Origin: Brumimicrobium mesophilum
Lineage (GTDB): Bacteria > Bacteroidota > Bacteroidia > Flavobacteriales_D > Crocinitomicaceae
Direction: 5' to 3'
Assembly (NCBI RefSeq): GCF_003025005.1
Contig: NZ_PVSS01000004.1
Location: 186,001-250,000, forward strand
DNA: 64,000 nt
Positions 6,200 through 42,984 of this stretch are shown here, in pieces (position 1 is the stretch's first letter; the number at the start of each line of letters is the position of its first letter). The notes under the pieces are model-generated. The model saw only the letters and a program-made list of their open reading frames with translations, did not search any database and was not told the origin of the DNA. The position numbers and the translations under genes are program-made.

Positions 6200-8551
6200 A
6201 TGGAGGAGGAATGTAGGCTTGATTTATTAGGGAGTTTGTCTAGTGGGAAGGAATTAGAAAAAATATTAAAATTAAAAAAAAGAGATTATATTCTAGAAGA
6301 TATTCCGATTGATGCAGAATTACTTGAGGAATATAAGAATAAAGGTTGGGTAATTCAGCGACAGCTGAAACATCATTATAGAATGAAAGCACCTAAACCA
6401 CATGACATTTTATTTGAGGATAAGGTTTGGAGTGTTTTTGCTCAACTAGGTTTTACCCATCTTAACTCAGATCGAAGATTTGTCTTACCTTATGAGAAGA
6501 ATAATCCAAATTTAACTAAACAGATAGATGTTTTTGCCAAGGATGATGAATCCATTTTATATGTTGAATGTAAATCATCACTTGAATATGGAAGGGGGAA
6601 TTTTAAAAAAGAATTAGAGTCTTTTAAAGGTATTAAAGGAGGGTTGGAAACAACCATAAAAAAAATGTTTCCGAATAGTAAGCCTAGAATAAAATTCATT
6701 CTTGCAACTGAGAATAAAACACTTGGCGAAAATGATTTGGAGAGATTGGCTAATTTGGGGGGATTGCATTTAGATGAAGAGTCAATAGAATATTATTTAA
6801 ATATGTTTAATCAAATTGGTATTGCCGCAAGATATCAATTGTTAGGTGCCTTATTTTCAGGGAATACAATTCCTGATCTTGACAATCAAATACCTGCAAT
6901 TAAAGGTAAAATGGGAAGTCATACGTATTATTCCTTCTCAATTGAACCGGATAAACTATTAAAAATTGGATATGTTTTACATCGAAGTAAGGCAAATAGA
7001 AAAATGATGCCTACATACCAAAGGATTATAAAAAAAAATAGACTTAAACAGATAAACGAGTTCATAACTAAAGAATCGGGATTTTTTCCGAATTCCATAA
7101 TTATTAGTCTTGATGCTAAAGATTCACGTTTGAGATTTGATTCTGCCAATACTCAAGTTCCTACAGCAATTTCTAAGGTTGGTGTCTTACATTTGCCTAA
7201 AAAGTATAGATCTGCATATATTATTGATGGGCAACATAGGTTATATGGATACGCAGGTTCAAAGTATGCTAAAACTAATACAATTCCTGTTGTGGCTTTT
7301 GTTAATTTAAAAAGGGAAGAGCAGGTTGATTTATTTATGCAAATAAATGAAAATCAAAAAGCCGTTCCTAAGACATTAAGAGAAACTCTTAATGCAGATT
7401 TATTATGGACTTCTACTAATTTAAAAGAACAATTTAAAGCACTTTGTTCAAGGGTTTCAATTTTTCTCGGTGAAGAAAAAGATTCACCTTTTTATAATTA
7501 CATTTCATTAGGAGAGGACAATAGAGTATTAACACCTGGAAACATTTCATCAGCGCTACTAAAAAGTGAATTTTTAGGTTCAGTTTCTAAAGGTGAAATT
7601 GAGAGTTTGGGAATTTTTTACAAGGGTAATTTAGAAGAAGCCTTTAATAAAACCTATGAATATTTAAGACTTTCATTTGAGTATCTTAAAAATTGTCTTA
7701 ATGAAGACTGGATACAACAAAAAGATAGCTTTCTATTTGTAAATAAAGGTGTTCATGCAGTTATATTACTATTCAGTGATATACTTATCCACCTAGAAAG
7801 TTTTAATGTAATTAATAGTAGTTCTGATAAGCCGCATACTCTATTTAATGAGACACAAAAATATTTAGACCCACTAATTACATTTGTTAGAGAAATGGAT
7901 GAAGATACCTTTTATAAATTTAAAGACATGAAGGGGTCTACCGCTCCTTCAAGATATTGGAGGAAATTTCAAATTTGTATAAGGGCTGTTCATCCAAATT
8001 TTGATCCAGAAGGATTGTCAGAATACATAAAAAAGCAAGAAAGAGAATTGAATTTCAATACATTTAAAATGATCCAAAATGTGGAAGAGTTTATGCGTAA
8101 AGATTTTAAATCGAAGCTACATAACAAACTAGGAGAGGAGTGGGCTTGGAAAAAAGGGGTACCAATTAAAATTCAAGATGACGCTGAGGACCGAATGAGG
8201 AGAAAAAATCGAACTAGAACTAAAGAAGAGGAAACTGAAGTTTGGGACAATCTAAATTTAATTCATTACAGGGAAATTGCTAAACAGAATTGGCAGTATG
8301 TCAACGATGATAAGAAAAGAGTTAAGTTTTTTGAATTCGATTATACAATGCCAAATGAAGAGAATTTAAACAAAGAGGATAAAACCAAGTGGTGGGTAAG
8401 GTTAAACGAATTAAGAAATATTGTTTCACATGTTTCAAGCGATCAGATTTCCGATGAAGATTTTGAATATGTTCAAAACATACATGAATGGTTAATTGAT
8501 AAAAAAGTACAAAACAAATGGCAAAGAGAAGCCCAGAAACAAGCTGAATAA
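6200..8551 (+). CDS. DGQHR-domain protein with N-terminal PD-(D/E)xK-like and C-terminal HEPN-like regions
   Basis: A 783-residue, apparently three-part protein. Residues about 70-185 look like a restriction-endonuclease fold: E73 in a helix, then D110 and E123-x-K125 in Q-I-D-V-F-A...Y-V-E-C-K-S. Residues about 240-480 form a DGQHR/DndB-like domain, with the signature I-I-D-G-Q-H-R at 341-347 and Q-I-N-E-N-Q-K-A-V-P at 381-390. Residues about 685-770 carry R739-N-I-V-S-H744, the R-x4-H motif of HEPN ribonucleases, in a Swt1-like context (L-N-E-L-R-N). DGQHR proteins occur in DNA phosphorothioation (DndB) and 7-deazapurine DNA systems, but none of those partner genes is present here. It heads a five-gene block. 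The nuclease activities are inferred from motifs. Confidence 0.8.
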   Translation: MEEECRLDLLGSLSSGKELEKILKLKKRDYILEDIPIDAELLEEYKNKGWVIQRQLKHHYRMKAPKPHDILFEDKVWSVFAQLGFTHLNSDRRFVLPYEKNNPNLTKQIDVFAKDDESILYVECKSSLEYGRGNFKKELESFKGIKGGLETTIKKMFPNSKPRIKFILATENKTLGENDLERLANLGGLHLDEESIEYYLNMFNQIGIAARYQLLGALFSGNTIPDLDNQIPAIKGKMGSHTYYSFSIEPDKLLKIGYVLHRSKANRKMMPTYQRIIKKNRLKQINEFITKESGFFPNSIIISLDAKDSRLRFDSANTQVPTAISKVGVLHLPKKYRSAYIIDGQHRLYGYAGSKYAKTNTIPVVAFVNLKREEQVDLFMQINENQKAVPKTLRETLNADLLWTSTNLKEQFKALCSRVSIFLGEEKDSPFYNYISLGEDNRVLTPGNISSALLKSEFLGSVSKGEIESLGIFYKGNLEEAFNKTYEYLRLSFEYLKNCLNEDWIQQKDSFLFVNKGVHAVILLFSDILIHLESFNVINSSSDKPHTLFNETQKYLDPLITFVREMDEDTFYKFKDMKGSTAPSRYWRKFQICIRAVHPNFDPEGLSEYIKKQERELNFNTFKMIQNVEEFMRKDFKSKLHNKLGEEWAWKKGVPIKIQDDAEDRMRRKNRTRTKEEETEVWDNLNLIHYREIAKQNWQYVNDDKKRVKFFEFDYTMPNEENLNKEDKTKWWVRLNELRNIVSHVSSDQISDEDFEYVQNIHEWLIDKKVQNKWQREAQKQAE

Positions 8552-8562
8552 ATACAATAGCA

Positions 8563-8682
8563 ATGCTTTTATCGAATTTGCTTAATTTCAAATGGTGGAT
8601 AATTTTCTTTTTAGCCTACATTTTGACTATTTTAGCATTGTTTAGAATGTTATATAATTCACGTCCTCAAATTATAAATTAA
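8563..8682 (+). CDS. 39-residue single-pass membrane peptide
   Basis: A short frame opening 11 bases after the DGQHR gene. It encodes 39 residues starting M-L-L-S-N-L-L-N-F-K, then a transmembrane helix of about 17 residues (W-W-I-I-F-F-L-A-Y-I-L-T-I-L-A-L-F), then a polar tail ending R-P-Q-I-I-N. Its TAA shares one base with the ATG of the methyltransferase gene (TAATG), the layout of translationally coupled genes. It fills the gap between the two neighbours almost exactly. I recognise no family. Small membrane peptides in defence operons can be effectors or anchors, but nothing here proves that. Coding status rests on its position, coupling and helix. Confidence 0.55.
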   Translation: MLLSNLLNFKWWIIFFLAYILTILALFRMLYNSRPQIIN

Positions 8683-9893
8683 TGAGTCCAATATTTACAG
8701 TAGATAAAGTCTTAAACTACAAACTGAAAGTTCCTCATATTATTAAATATATGGGTTCTAAGAGTTCGCTTTTAAAATATTTGGTTGATTCATTTAACGA
8801 AATATATGAAGGTGAAGATATTTGCGATTTATTTTCTGGAAGTAGTGTCTTAAGCGGTTCACTTGGAAATGAAGTAACAATGCATGTAAATGATATACAA
8901 AGTTATTCAGCAGTACTAGCTAAAACTTATCTTGGAAATTATTGTTGGGCGGATTATCCTAATATTATAGAAGAGGTTATCCAAATAGCACAAAAGCATT
9001 TAGAGAAAGTTCATGTTCTCTACCCTAAATTAAAGTTTGAATATCATCATAATATGCCGCTTAAGGAATTTAATGATCTTGAACAACAGCAACAGGAGTT
9101 AATATATTCTGATTTTATAGATATTGAACATCATTTATTTATAAAAAAATATTCAGGGACATATTGGTCTTTTGAGCAGTGCCTTTGGATAGATGCCATT
9201 AGAATAGCAGCAGAAGAATATTCAAAAACTCCTGTTTATAATACTATTTTATCAAGCCTTATGTTTGCAATGGCATATAATGCACAAAGTACAGGTCATT
9301 ATGCACAATATAGAAAGGCTAACAATCCAAACTCCATGAATGATATAATCATTTATCGAAAAAAAGAAATAATACCATATTTCGAGAAGAAATTTAAAGA
9401 ATTAATTGAATTTACAGGTCAAAACCAATTTGAACACACTTTTAATTCTTTAGATTATAGAGAATGCTTAGAGTTTATACCTGAAGGAACATTGGTCTAT
9501 GCAGATCCACCTTATAATTTTGTTCATTATTCAAGATTTTATCATGCATTGGAAACTTTAATTAGATACGATTATCCAGATGTTTTATTTAAGGGAAGAT
9601 ATCGTACAGATCGACATCAGTCACCGTTTTGTAAAAGCAGTGAGGTCGTTGGAGCCTTTGAAGAATTATTCCAAGGAATTAAAAATAAAAAAGCTAAACT
9701 TGTATTAAGCTACAGTAATTCGGGTATGATTAGTTTAGAAGAAATCCTTGAGCTAGCAAAAACTACCCTAGGAAACAATTATGAAGTATATTCTAAAGGT
9801 ATTGATTACAAACATAGTACAATGGGAAGGGTGGATGATAAATCGAGAGAGGTTAAAGAGTATTTAGTAATGGCAAAACCAATTAATAAATGA
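8682..9893 (+). CDS. D12-class N6-adenine DNA methyltransferase
   Basis: A 403-residue Dam-like (alpha class, D12) DNA adenine methyltransferase. The N-terminal motif K-Y-M-G-S-K lies at residues 22-27 (motif X). The SAM-binding motif D-L-F-S-G-S-S is at 49-55 and V-N-D at 69-71. The catalytic D-P-P-Y is at 275-278, followed by N-F-V-H-Y-S. It is longer than E. coli Dam (about 278 residues) because of an insert at about residues 85-210, presumably the target recognition part. Its target sequence cannot be predicted. It overlaps the small membrane peptide gene by 1 base and the ATPase gene by 4 bases, so it belongs to the same unit. It probably marks self DNA. Confidence 0.88.
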   Translation: MSPIFTVDKVLNYKLKVPHIIKYMGSKSSLLKYLVDSFNEIYEGEDICDLFSGSSVLSGSLGNEVTMHVNDIQSYSAVLAKTYLGNYCWADYPNIIEEVIQIAQKHLEKVHVLYPKLKFEYHHNMPLKEFNDLEQQQQELIYSDFIDIEHHLFIKKYSGTYWSFEQCLWIDAIRIAAEEYSKTPVYNTILSSLMFAMAYNAQSTGHYAQYRKANNPNSMNDIIIYRKKEIIPYFEKKFKELIEFTGQNQFEHTFNSLDYRECLEFIPEGTLVYADPPYNFVHYSRFYHALETLIRYDYPDVLFKGRYRTDRHQSPFCKSSEVVGAFEELFQGIKNKKAKLVLSYSNSGMISLEEILELAKTTLGNNYEVYSKGIDYKHSTMGRVDDKSREVKEYLVMAKPINK

Positions 9894-11680
9894 GTAGAGA
9901 GTTTGATTTATCGAAGTTGAAGACGTCTTGGACTAAATTTGATATTGTTCAAGTAATGGAGATTATTTATAATAAGGAGACTCTCTTTAAGTTTAAAAAT
10001 AAGGAGGCTGCTATTGATGAACCTATTCTAAGATCTTTTTTGGGTATTAATAAACTTAGTGATCCATTACCTGAATATTGGCTAGAGATACAAAACCATC
10101 AAAGTGAAAAAGATTTGTTTTCTATGTTTTGTCTTATATTCACTCATGGAGAAGTAATAAGAAATTTCGCTAATAAATATTCCAAAGGTAATATGAAAGG
10201 AGTATTTACGATTGATGATGGGGGCAAGCAATATACAAATTTACGTAGTGCATTAATCGAGTCAGGTGCTTCAGCACCGTATTTGCGAAGAGCACACAAA
10301 GTTCCTTACGATTTTACTCCAATATTTCAGAATTTAGAAGTTGGTAAGCTTTTTAAACAAGTTTTAATTGAGAGAATAACTAGGATAACTAAAGAAGAAC
10401 AGCTCGAGGATTCAGAGTTCTATAAAATTTGCTTTGAAAATGATTTTAACAAAGCAATTAGTCTAACAAGAGAACAATTTAAGTCTTGGCTGGAGGGAGT
10501 TAAGTTAATCGAGAGTAAATTCATTAATAAAGTTTGGATTAAAAACTTTTACTCTATTTCTGAAATTGATTTAGAACATATTAATAGTTCCAAAGAAGTT
10601 TATTTTCTTGGAGAAAATGGAGACGGTAAATCGCTGATATTAATGGCTATCTATCTTACCTTTAACAGACATTTCATTACTCAAAAGACTGACAAGGAAC
10701 AAACTGGAAAAATTATTGATATCCTCACAGATAATAAAAATCTCGAACTTAAAGGGTTAGATAGTGGTAATATAGAATATGGACATGTAAACGTGGGTTA
10801 TTTAAATAACTTTTTAGCTTACGGAACACATCGAGGCAGATACTCCACAGATACTTCAGAAGAATACGGATTCATGTCATTATTCGATAATAACGAGACG
10901 CTCTTAAATCCAATGTCATGGCTAAAAGATCAGAAACTGCTGGAATTAGAAAAAAATATCGAAGCTAAAAATGTGATATACCAGGATAAATCGCTACCGA
11001 GTTATTTTTCAGTAAAATCATTAGAAATTATGTTTTACGATCTTTTAGAAAAAAATGTCAGTATTTCAATCGAAGGGTCAGGAATTATATTCGAGGAGAA
11101 AGGATCAAAATTGAATTTTGATCAATTATCGGAAGGATATAAAAGTATAATTATTTTTGTATCTGATGTTATATTTCGTCTTCAAAAAAATCAACCAAAA
11201 ATTAAAGTTATTGAAGATTTGTCAGGCATAGTGTTAGTTGATGAAATAGATTTACATCTACATCCAAAATGGCAGAAAGTTATTATCAGTAAATTGAGAA
11301 AATTACTTCCCAACGTGCAGTTTATGTTTTCAACGCATAGCCCTTCTATTATTCAAGGAGCTTCTGATGAGGCAATAATATATCGAGTTTATCGTAACAA
11401 ATCTGATGGTAAAACCAGAGTTTCTGAACCTTATTTTAGAAGTGAACTTAACCATTTGATGATTAACACTCTATTAACATCACCTCTTTTTGGTCTTGAC
11501 AACTCTAGGTTAGATGACGATAATGATTTATCTAACACAAGTGAAAATTACTTGATTTATAGAATCCATGAGAAATTAAAATATTTGATCAATGAGAAGA
11601 ATGAAGAAGGGGAGGAGTTTATATCGAAGGACGATATAGATAATTTAATTCAAAGAATTATTGATGAAGAAGGAGTATGA
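9890..11680 (+). CDS. Septu PtuA-like ABC/SMC-type ATPase with N-terminal extension
   Basis: A 596-residue protein. The C-terminal ATPase is complete: Walker A G-E-N-G-D-G-K-S at 241-248, ABC signature L-S-E-G-Y at 413-417, Walker B I-V-L-V-D-E at 447-452 followed by D-L-H-L-H-P, and the switch S-T-H-S-P at 481-485. This matches the AAA_21/OLD-like ATPases of Septu (PtuA) and retron-linked effectors. Residues 1 to about 210 form an extra region I do not recognise. It includes the unusual stretch G-G-K-Q-Y-T-N-L-R-S-A-L-I-E-S-G. An HNH nuclease gene follows with a 4-base ATGA overlap, the PtuA-PtuB order. It probably acts as the sensor or scaffold of the nuclease. Confidence 0.82.
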   Translation: MSREFDLSKLKTSWTKFDIVQVMEIIYNKETLFKFKNKEAAIDEPILRSFLGINKLSDPLPEYWLEIQNHQSEKDLFSMFCLIFTHGEVIRNFANKYSKGNMKGVFTIDDGGKQYTNLRSALIESGASAPYLRRAHKVPYDFTPIFQNLEVGKLFKQVLIERITRITKEEQLEDSEFYKICFENDFNKAISLTREQFKSWLEGVKLIESKFINKVWIKNFYSISEIDLEHINSSKEVYFLGENGDGKSLILMAIYLTFNRHFITQKTDKEQTGKIIDILTDNKNLELKGLDSGNIEYGHVNVGYLNNFLAYGTHRGRYSTDTSEEYGFMSLFDNNETLLNPMSWLKDQKLLELEKNIEAKNVIYQDKSLPSYFSVKSLEIMFYDLLEKNVSISIEGSGIIFEEKGSKLNFDQLSEGYKSIIIFVSDVIFRLQKNQPKIKVIEDLSGIVLVDEIDLHLHPKWQKVIISKLRKLLPNVQFMFSTHSPSIIQGASDEAIIYRVYRNKSDGKTRVSEPYFRSELNHLMINTLLTSPLFGLDNSRLDDDNDLSNTSENYLIYRIHEKLKYLINEKNEEGEEFISKDDIDNLIQRIIDEEGV

Positions 11681-12465
11681 TCAGAATAATTAAAAATTTA
11701 GCGAACCCGCCTTCCTCACTTATAATACCGCATAGTAAAAAACAAAACCCAAGGAAAAGAAATACTACACATAAGAAGAGGTTAGAGATAATTGATAACA
11801 AAAAATACGTTGATAACAAAAATTACAACTCAAGATACAAACTTAATGACGTAAGGGAAGCATTGTTGAAAATATATAATCACAAATGCGCATACTGCGA
11901 GCAAAGAATCGAACAATACCATGTGGATCACTTTAGACCTAAGTCAATATATTACTGGTTAGCATTTTCATGGGATAATTTGTTAATTTCCTGTCCAAAA
12001 TGCAACGAAAATAAGGGTAAAAAATTTGATATTGATGGAAAAAGAATTGTATTTGATAGCAATGAAAATAATTTAACCTTCTTAAATAAGTCCTCTGTTA
12101 AGTATGATTTAATTGAAAAACCAAAAATGATCAACCCAGAGAGAGTGGACATATCTAATAAGATTTGCTTTCAAGTATCGGGTAAGATTTTTTCAAGTAA
12201 TAAAAATTTTGGGTATACAATAGAATCCTGTGGTATTGATCGGAAAGATCTCAATGATCAGAGAAGAAAAATAATTGATGATTTTGAGAGAGACATAACT
12301 TCAATCAAAAAGGAATTCAAAAAGAATGAAGATAAATGTAAAGAGTATGAAACTATAATTCGTAAATTTATTAGAGATTCCAAATGTAATAGCAATGAAT
12401 TCTTAGCATTTAGAAACTTTGCAATAAAAAATGATTGGCTTAGAGATATTATTTTGAAAAAATAG
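11677..12465 (+). CDS. HNH endonuclease, PtuB/retron-effector type
   Basis: A 262-residue HNH nuclease. The core lies at about residues 65-115: zinc cysteines C-A-Y-C at 71-74, catalytic H-V-D-H-F-R-P-K-S at 82-90, and second zinc pair C-P-K-C at 106-109 followed by N-E-N-K-G. This arrangement matches the HNH proteins of Septu and of retron systems (TIGR02646-like). The N-terminus (N-P-P-S-S-L) and the charged helical C-terminus also fit that family. It overlaps the ATPase gene by 4 bases and is the last gene of the block, 80 bases before a hairpin. In Septu, PtuA and PtuB form a complex that cuts nucleic acid, and the same is inferred here. Confidence 0.85.
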   Translation: MIRIIKNLANPPSSLIIPHSKKQNPRKRNTTHKKRLEIIDNKKYVDNKNYNSRYKLNDVREALLKIYNHKCAYCEQRIEQYHVDHFRPKSIYYWLAFSWDNLLISCPKCNENKGKKFDIDGKRIVFDSNENNLTFLNKSSVKYDLIEKPKMINPERVDISNKICFQVSGKIFSSNKNFGYTIESCGIDRKDLNDQRRKIIDDFERDITSIKKEFKKNEDKCKEYETIIRKFIRDSKCNSNEFLAFRNFAIKNDWLRDIILKK

Positions 12466-12544: not shown

Positions 12545-12580
12545 AACAATCAGAACAGTCGGTTTTCTGCTCTGATTGTT
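12545..12580. terminator. Hairpin between convergent genes, probable bidirectional terminator
   Basis: An inverted repeat of 14 bases with one mismatch (AACAATCAGA at 12545, TCTGATTGTT ending at 12580) around a short TCGGTTTT loop. It sits between the HNH gene on the plus strand and the T9SS gene on the minus strand, which end toward each other. T-rich sequence follows on both sides but the T-runs are short. Confidence 0.55.
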
Positions 12581-42841: not shown

Positions 42842-42871
42842 TTGCAGACTAAAATCAAATTACTAATTTTG
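42842..42871 (+). promoter_or_regulatory. Promoter of the SRP RNA gene
   Basis: TTG at 42842-42844, a 19-base spacer, then TAATTTTG at 42864-42871. The RNA's paired 5' end begins 4-5 bases downstream, which fixes the distance between the box and the transcription start in this genome. Confidence 0.75.
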
Positions 42872-42875
42872 CGGC

Positions 42876-42973
42876 GGGGTAAGTCTTGTACGACCAGCTC
42901 CCTCTGAACCCCCCAGGACGGGAACGTAGCAAGGGTAAGAGGTTGTAGCGGTGCGATTCAAGTAGCTTACCCC
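42876..42973 (+). ncRNA. ffs: Bacterial small SRP RNA (4.5S type)
   Basis: About 98 bases with paired ends (GGGGTAAG at the 5' side, CTTACCCC at the 3' side). The apical region contains C-C-A-G-G-A-C-G-G-G-A-A-C-G-T-A-G-C-A-A-G-G, which holds the GNAR-type tetraloop and the conserved internal loops that bind Ffh. It is followed directly by a run of nine T after CAC, an intrinsic-terminator-like end. It forms the core of the signal recognition particle that targets membrane proteins; yidC lies 2.3 kb downstream. Confidence 0.92.
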
Positions 42974-42984
42974 ACTTTTTTTTT

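Follow-up and report, generated by a model that had tools for sequence, protein, structure and literature searches.

We analysed a stretch of 64,000 nucleotides (nt) of the Brumimicrobium mesophilum genome (GCF_003025005.1, NZ_PVSS01000004.1, positions 186,001-250,000, forward; hereafter the window, whose numbering is used throughout). Its plus strand carries an operon joining a DGQHR protein, a D12-class N6-adenine DNA methyltransferase (MTase) and a Septu-like PtuA/PtuB pair. The association of these four large genes is real, recurrent and beyond chance, because two genomes have them in different orders. We propose, with about even confidence, that the operon encodes a restriction-modification (R-M)-like system in which Septu PtuAB is the restriction machine, aimed by an N-terminal domain (NTD) of PtuA. 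What is established here is the gene set, the fact that it recurs and the swapping of this domain; site recognition, methylation gating, the cut target and the role of the DGQHR protein are what we infer. The original prediction, made from the letters alone, was of a methylation-gated Septu-like system. A link between Septu and methylation is still the best reading in view of the second genome and the MTase-associated NTD, the gating itself being deduced from the layout.

The five same-strand open reading frames (ORFs) of that prediction, and the overlaps between the last four, were confirmed on the sequence. The gene for the DGQHR protein (783 amino acids (aa), 6200..8551) is separated from the MTase gene (403 aa, 8682..9893, DPPY at residue 275) by 130 nt, occupied only by the ORF of a possible membrane peptide of 39 aa (8563..8682). 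PtuA (596 aa) lies at 9890..11680, with the NTD, residues 1-212, at 9890..10525 and the ABC-type ATPase part at 10526..11680; the PtuB-like HNH nuclease (262 aa) follows at 11677..12465. The overlaps are TAATG at 8680-8684 (peptide/MTase) and ATGA at 9890-9893 (MTase/PtuA) and 11677-11680 (PtuA/PtuB). The four family assignments also held. The DGQHR protein scored 155 bits with TIGR03187 against a cut-off of 59 (E 2.4e-45), and the MTase, whose catalytic motifs are present, 72 bits with PF02086 against a cut-off of 22 (E 6.8e-20). PADLOC recognised PtuA (E 1e-45) and PtuB (E 4e-38), the NCBIfam equivalog cut-offs for both not being reached. PtuA has a Walker A motif at 241, the signature LSEG at 413, Walker B at about 447 and STHSP at 481; PtuB matches PF01844, is above cut-off for TIGR02646 and has its HNH and zinc cysteines. 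Among solved structures, the ATPase and HNH parts are closest to those of type I-A retrons (Eco7/Ec78, Ec83), and the absence of a reverse transcriptase near the operon stood, the single RVT_1 match obtained for the genome lying on contig C23. The locus has the Septu traits of a PtuA-like ABC ATPase, complete with its Walker and signature motifs, and an adjacent PtuB-like HNH nuclease; it is not a two-gene stand-alone one, since PtuA overlaps the D12 gene and bears the MTase-linked NTD. The overlapping D12, PtuA and PtuB genes equally couple a DNA MTase to a nuclease, as in an R-M system.

The second genome is that of Saonia flava (L017), where the four large genes are arranged D12 - PtuA - PtuB - DGQHR and are 69% (D12), 67% (PtuA), 50% (PtuB) and 79% (DGQHR) identical to those of the window. 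The order D12, NTD-PtuA, PtuB is kept and the position of the DGQHR gene is shifted. In the DGQHR tree the two proteins are sisters (support 1.0), and their next relatives (L018, L019) lie beside a Dam-like MTase, where PtuAB was not seen. A simple reading is that a DGQHR lineage swapped its MTase for a D12-PtuAB module and that the order changed afterwards. One could also imagine chance neighbours in a defence-rich spot, with no joint function. In favour of this, the window's exact gene order was found once, and an order unique to this genome had been named beforehand as a reason to drop the prediction; the gene set, however, recurs in S. flava. Recurrence, overlaps and NTD swapping, together with the fact that five of the six neighbouring genes match ordinary families and one matches none, make chance very improbable.

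On sequence grounds, the NTD is the likely link between the MTase and PtuA. The original prediction had missed it, as well as the usual Dam/DpnM-like MTase partner of DGQHR genes without PtuAB. This domain, delimited by a six-locus alignment and a profile search as the first ~212 residues of PtuA, matched nothing in Pfam or PADLOC. It was seen in six loci, always directly behind a close D12 MTase and within about 4 nt of it, with three types of fusion partner: PtuA in the window and Saonia, a DGQHR/DndB domain in genomes G158 (PF14072) and G742, and, on a Roseibium plasmid and in G809, an AAA ATPase encoded ahead of a DUF2357 nuclease. The Roseibium protein has a McrB-like AAA part (weak in Pfam; PADLOC PDC-M26A, E 4e-36) and precedes a DUF2357-PDDEXK_7 protein. 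In 395 genomes of the phylum, PtuA matched 97, with the NTD covered by the window's own match and G158 alone, and the NTD profile matched two, the window genome and G158. With the NTD as query, 72,556 plasmid records yielded the Roseibium protein only, directly behind its D12 MTase. The NTD tree grouped the loci by effector type; the MTase tree was weakly resolved and did not pair G158 and G742. Behind the NTD-DGQHR genes of these two genomes lies a third gene, encoding related proteins of 441 and 451 aa (39% identity; L099:4157-5482, L148:2755-4110) without a Pfam match. Two candidate NTD homologues, a 207-aa membrane protein of Acinetobacter TR3 and a 320-aa protein of L042, were rejected.

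Searches with the D12 MTase gave three close matches among the 395 genomes (window, G215, G158), four among 157 genomes of the family of G158 (G158, G215, G742, G809) and one, Saonia, among 179 genomes of another family; Dyadobacter and Acinetobacter TR3 were matched on plasmids. The MTases of the nine close loci are 44-69% identical to that of the window. An NTD protein stands behind the MTase in six of them, and a BglII-family nuclease accompanies it in three: G215 (two nucleases), Dyadobacter (annotated as BglII/BstYI-family) and TR3, where the nuclease is followed by a membrane protein and then a DGQHR protein. None of the neighbourhoods of nine weaker D12 matches contained an NTD protein. 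The B. mesophilum genome has a second D12 MTase, a 285-aa frame on another contig.

The system we propose would be nucleoside triphosphate (NTP)-dependent and R-M-like, with Septu PtuA/PtuB replacing the usual restriction machine. The D12 enzyme would methylate adenine in one site on the chromosome, and the NTD would recognise the unmethylated form of that site and direct PtuA and PtuB, the ATPase and the nuclease, to incoming DNA. The DGQHR protein, with its ParB/Srx-like core and nuclease-like domain and its standard partnership with adenine MTases, would be an accessory effector or regulator. We favour this scheme because of the second genome, the NTD behind the same MTase in six loci with three effector types, the PcaI make-up of sister loci, site binding by LlaJI R1, the BglII-family neighbours, the MTase in nearly all DGQHR cassettes (see below) and the catalytic motifs, which are present in the MTase, PtuA and PtuB alike. 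The NTD would most simply serve in target recognition, with PtuA as the engine and PtuB as the blade, because the NTPase subunits of PcaI and LlaJI have their own N-termini and LlaJI R1 binds its site. In the available excerpts, PcaI consists of an MTase, an AAA protein and a DUF2357 protein and restricts unmethylated DNA, the AAA subunit being McrB-like in its C-terminal part only (PMC8989522), and the LlaJI subunit R1, whose N-terminal half is unique, binds LlaJI-site DNA (PMC1459862).

Several points weigh against this proposal. It was the MTase query that led to G742 and G809, so that adjacency of NTD and MTase is not independent in two of the six loci and the independent cases are the window, Saonia, G158 and Roseibium. 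The AlphaFold2 (AF2) model of the NTD, built from two sequences, had a pLDDT of 39 and no usable fold, and a PDB profile search with the NTD found no relative (best E 0.37). The single occurrence of the exact gene order also counts here. According to the same excerpts, M.PcaI is a Dcm-like cytosine enzyme (PMC8989522) and LlaJI has no reported in vitro cleavage (PMC1459862). Moreover, no recognition site could be inferred from word counts (200-480 kb per genome, eight genomes including controls), and none is proposed. GATC showed depletion in B. mesophilum (0.70), Saonia (0.53) and G158 (0.58), yet also in the control G194 (0.47). AGATCT stood at 0.65-0.72 in G158, G215 and G742, at about 1 in B. 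mesophilum, Saonia and G809, and at 0.87 and 0.93 in controls. CTTAAG was seen 4 times in the window, both strands, against 19 expected; over 480 kb of the window genome it stood at 0.66, the lowest of the eight genomes (Saonia 0.93), and its rarity may be the sign of another R-M system. Finally, the available parts of two reports have the PtuAB of retron Eco7 and of Septu EcB88 cleaving tRNATyr (PMC11555353, PMC13096335).

This last point suits another scenario, a methylation-guarded abortive infection. A toxic PtuAB, acting as a tRNA or general nuclease, would be held off as long as the NTD senses methylation or the MTase, and phage disturbance would release it, as loss of multicopy single-stranded DNA (msDNA) does for PtuAB in retrons. 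A known arrangement of this kind is that of PrrC, which cleaves tRNA and accompanies a type I R-M system. The excerpted account of the Ec83 retron-Septu system, described as arrest-and-release, fits as well (PMC12948488). On the other side, the same NTD sits on an AAA and DUF2357 pair whose PcaI-type relatives, in the excerpts cited above, restrict DNA, and other reports, as far as their available parts go, have PtuAB acting on DNA, including nicked and single-stranded DNA (PMC13096335, PMC12948488). The gene layout does not separate this guard scenario from target recognition by the NTD; we consider the former rather unlikely. A broader form of the restriction proposal, to which we lend somewhat less than even credence, is a modular R-M-like family in which one recognition domain and one MTase lineage work with interchangeable engines (AAA/DUF2357, DGQHR NTPase, PtuAB). 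The window version would then be Septu-powered restriction, perhaps with killing by tRNA cleavage upon encounter with unmodified DNA.

We then considered the DGQHR protein. One pattern-based scan of a genome collection (84,980 species) gave 56 loci with relatives, in Bacteroidota, Actinomycetota, Alphaproteobacteria, Spirochaetes and others, many being metagenome bins. Three start at a contig edge, leaving 53 assessable loci, and in 52 of these an MTase gene lies in the same-strand cassette as the DGQHR gene. A Dam/DpnM-like MTase of about 280 aa (cluster c1) lies upstream in 46. Two loci with a Dam-like MTase beside a broken DGQHR frame (L067, L071) were counted by hand, for a total of 48; a longer D12 enzyme upstream in L017, L042 and L058 brings it to 51, and an MTase downstream in L052 to 52. 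L051, with a c1 member about 4 kb upstream, was left out of this count. The overlap is exactly 4 nt in 15 of 39 direct MTase/DGQHR pairs. In seven of the 46 loci (L020, L021, L022, L025, L026, L056, L059) a DpnII-like nuclease gene lies between the c1 MTase and the DGQHR gene. An N6_N4-type MTase gene follows the DGQHR gene in six of these operons, the seventh (L020) reaching a contig end. Pfam was run on single representatives, taken from L018 for c1 and from L021 for the DpnII and N6_N4 clusters; the other members were assigned by BLAST clustering. As an MTase is found in the cassette of 52 of the 53 assessable relatives, the DGQHR protein is probably no bystander in the operon.

The common state of the DGQHR gene is to be paired with an MTase, usually of the Dam/DpnM-like kind, without PtuAB, and two MTase-DGQHR pairs (L042, L058) have the longer D12 type (25-27% identical). 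This favours two units side by side, in which a DGQHR nuclease would be the restriction partner of the D12 enzyme and PtuAB an ordinary Septu pair placed between or behind, PtuA-like ATPases being frequent, as the 97 matched genomes show. The MTase-associated NTD on PtuA, the gene overlaps and the order D12, NTD-PtuA, PtuB kept in Saonia while the DGQHR gene relocates all speak against it, and we regard two units as improbable. Two plasmids, Novosphingobium pNL1 and Agrobacterium S7/73 (L259, L260), count against an MTase being obligatory: no annotated MTase lies at a distance of up to 4 kb from their long DGQHR gene, the PLSDB gene tables being incomplete. Its neighbours there include another DGQHR gene, a radical SAM gene and HATPase genes; the long DGQHR gene of L042 (L042:194-7075) likewise has another DGQHR gene and a radical SAM gene nearby. 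These loci might represent a further kind of DNA-modification cassette. DGQHR genes of the short type (369-396 aa; L029, L034, L041, L044, L060, L141) adjoin an ORF of 149-208 aa that looks membrane-bound by eye.

The DGQHR protein has a PD-(D/E)xK-like N-terminus (D110, E123, K125), the DGQHR domain at about 231-534 and an RNxxxH motif at 739-744. It is under the equivalog cut-offs of DpdB (94.5/300 bits) and DGQHR_dnd_1 (89.2/450 bits). Its AF2 model, built with 49 sequences, reached a pLDDT of 87.7 and a pTM of 0.65. The set comprised ORFs above 700 aa, omitting L028, a near copy of L027, and including the window protein. Foldseek against the PDB gave a sole match below E 0.001, VC1899 (4.8e-4, low TM-score), followed by Cdn1, ParB, EndoMS and McrC entries at E 0.002-0.1; VC1899, Cdn1, EndoMS and McrC have the PD-(D/E)xK-type nuclease fold in common. 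D110, E/D123 and K/R125 are all kept in 39 of the 49 proteins, the presumed nuclease site appearing degenerate in about one fifth, and both RNxxxH and the DGQHR motif occur in 48. The labels nuclease and HEPN-like of the original prediction are based on these motifs and the predicted fold; no library match carried the HEPN name. In the available excerpts, the DUF262/DGQHR domains are related to ParB/Srx (PMC4619093), and binding of ATP and GTP is described for a DndB-like protein (PMC12704722).

Other features of the locus are less clear. The 39-aa peptide is a plausible gene product by its ORF and hydrophobicity, but the stretches inspected next to five other DGQHR genes (L017, L018, L019, L042 and L058) showed nothing similar, so that its gene status may be doubtful. 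The hairpin 3' of the operon (12545..12580, plus strand), said in the original prediction to close the unit, folds stably by computation (-15.9 kcal/mol, z -3.1) but is missing from the terminator-scan results. Six neighbouring genes were scanned: a sigma factor gene and one without a Pfam match upstream, and a PKD/CHU_C (type IX) protein, two topoisomerase/gyrase subunits and a porin downstream. None of the six is a dnd or dpd modification gene; no whole-genome search was made. No retron RNA matched Rfam in the window at gathering scores, Rfam perhaps not covering every msr-msd, and the sole match at these scores is a Bacteroidales small signal recognition particle (SRP) RNA at 42870-42976. 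Viral contigs had no match in the PtuA, D12 and NTD-profile scans and one in the DGQHR scan, with a split Dam-like MTase upstream; phage records held no NTD, and their D12 matches were all below 31% identity.

Six further PtuA loci, chosen by score or length and not at random, were inspected. G194 (L155:1631-9900) has an N6_N4 MTase, a HerA-type gene, a 446-aa protein, a PtuB-PtuA fusion, a separate PtuB and an HNH_2 gene, and G065 (L156:2020-9489) a similar layout with an MTase-like gene first, Pfam families having been run for G194 only. By sequence, this is a second MTase-linked Septu layout. In G674 (L153:110-9804), PtuA-PtuB is preceded by two GmrSD_N genes and a type I restriction R gene, and its PtuA has a different N-terminus without a match to the NTD. 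Of the remaining three, G242 and G410 carry the PtuA-PtuB pair and G627 carries a PtuA-like gene.

To our knowledge, what triggers stand-alone Septu is unsettled. The MTase-associated NTD on PtuA is a new lead: the presumed sensor forms a domain of its own and is paired with one defined MTase, which makes a Septu-type trigger directly testable. If our proposal is true, R-M systems and Septu exchange parts, the pair could respond to DNA lacking the cell's own mark, and there would be a handle on the many MTase-DGQHR pairs and the role of the DGQHR protein in them.

In the open-access literature we found no description of this gene composition, absence there being no proof of novelty, and no joint mention of DGQHR and Septu. 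The accounts of DndB systems, BREX and the McrBC census, in their available parts, hold no system of this composition; the census does note MTase-associated McrB clades. Like Septu, the window has adjacent, overlapping PtuA ATPase and PtuB HNH genes with their motifs; unlike Septu, its PtuA carries an extra MTase-associated NTD and an MTase and a DGQHR protein belong to the locus. As in type I-A retrons, PtuAB would be under the control of another component, but no reverse transcriptase is adjacent. Hma, in its excerpted description, combines a helicase, a 5-methylcytosine (m5C) MTase and an ATPase and is often near Septu type I (PMC8565338); it is likewise an MTase-containing operon near Septu, but its genes differ and it is treated as a separate system. 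DndB and DpdB share the ParB/Srx-like DGQHR domain, whereas the window protein is far under their cut-offs, has extra N- and C-terminal parts and has an adenine MTase as partner. In seven relatives the DGQHR gene stands behind a Dam-like MTase and a DpnII-like nuclease, as an addition to DpnII-type R-M; the window has no DpnII nuclease and a D12 enzyme of a different type. PcaI and LlaJI, which are McrBC-like R-M systems, place an MTase beside a two-part machine of nuclease and NTPase, the latter bearing an N-terminal domain of its own, and the Roseibium plasmid and G809 (L140, L149) have the PcaI set of MTase, AAA and DUF2357 with a window-type MTase in front. Compared with PcaI, the window has PtuA and PtuB in place of AAA and DUF2357, which are absent from it, together with a DGQHR protein and an MTase of the adenine class.

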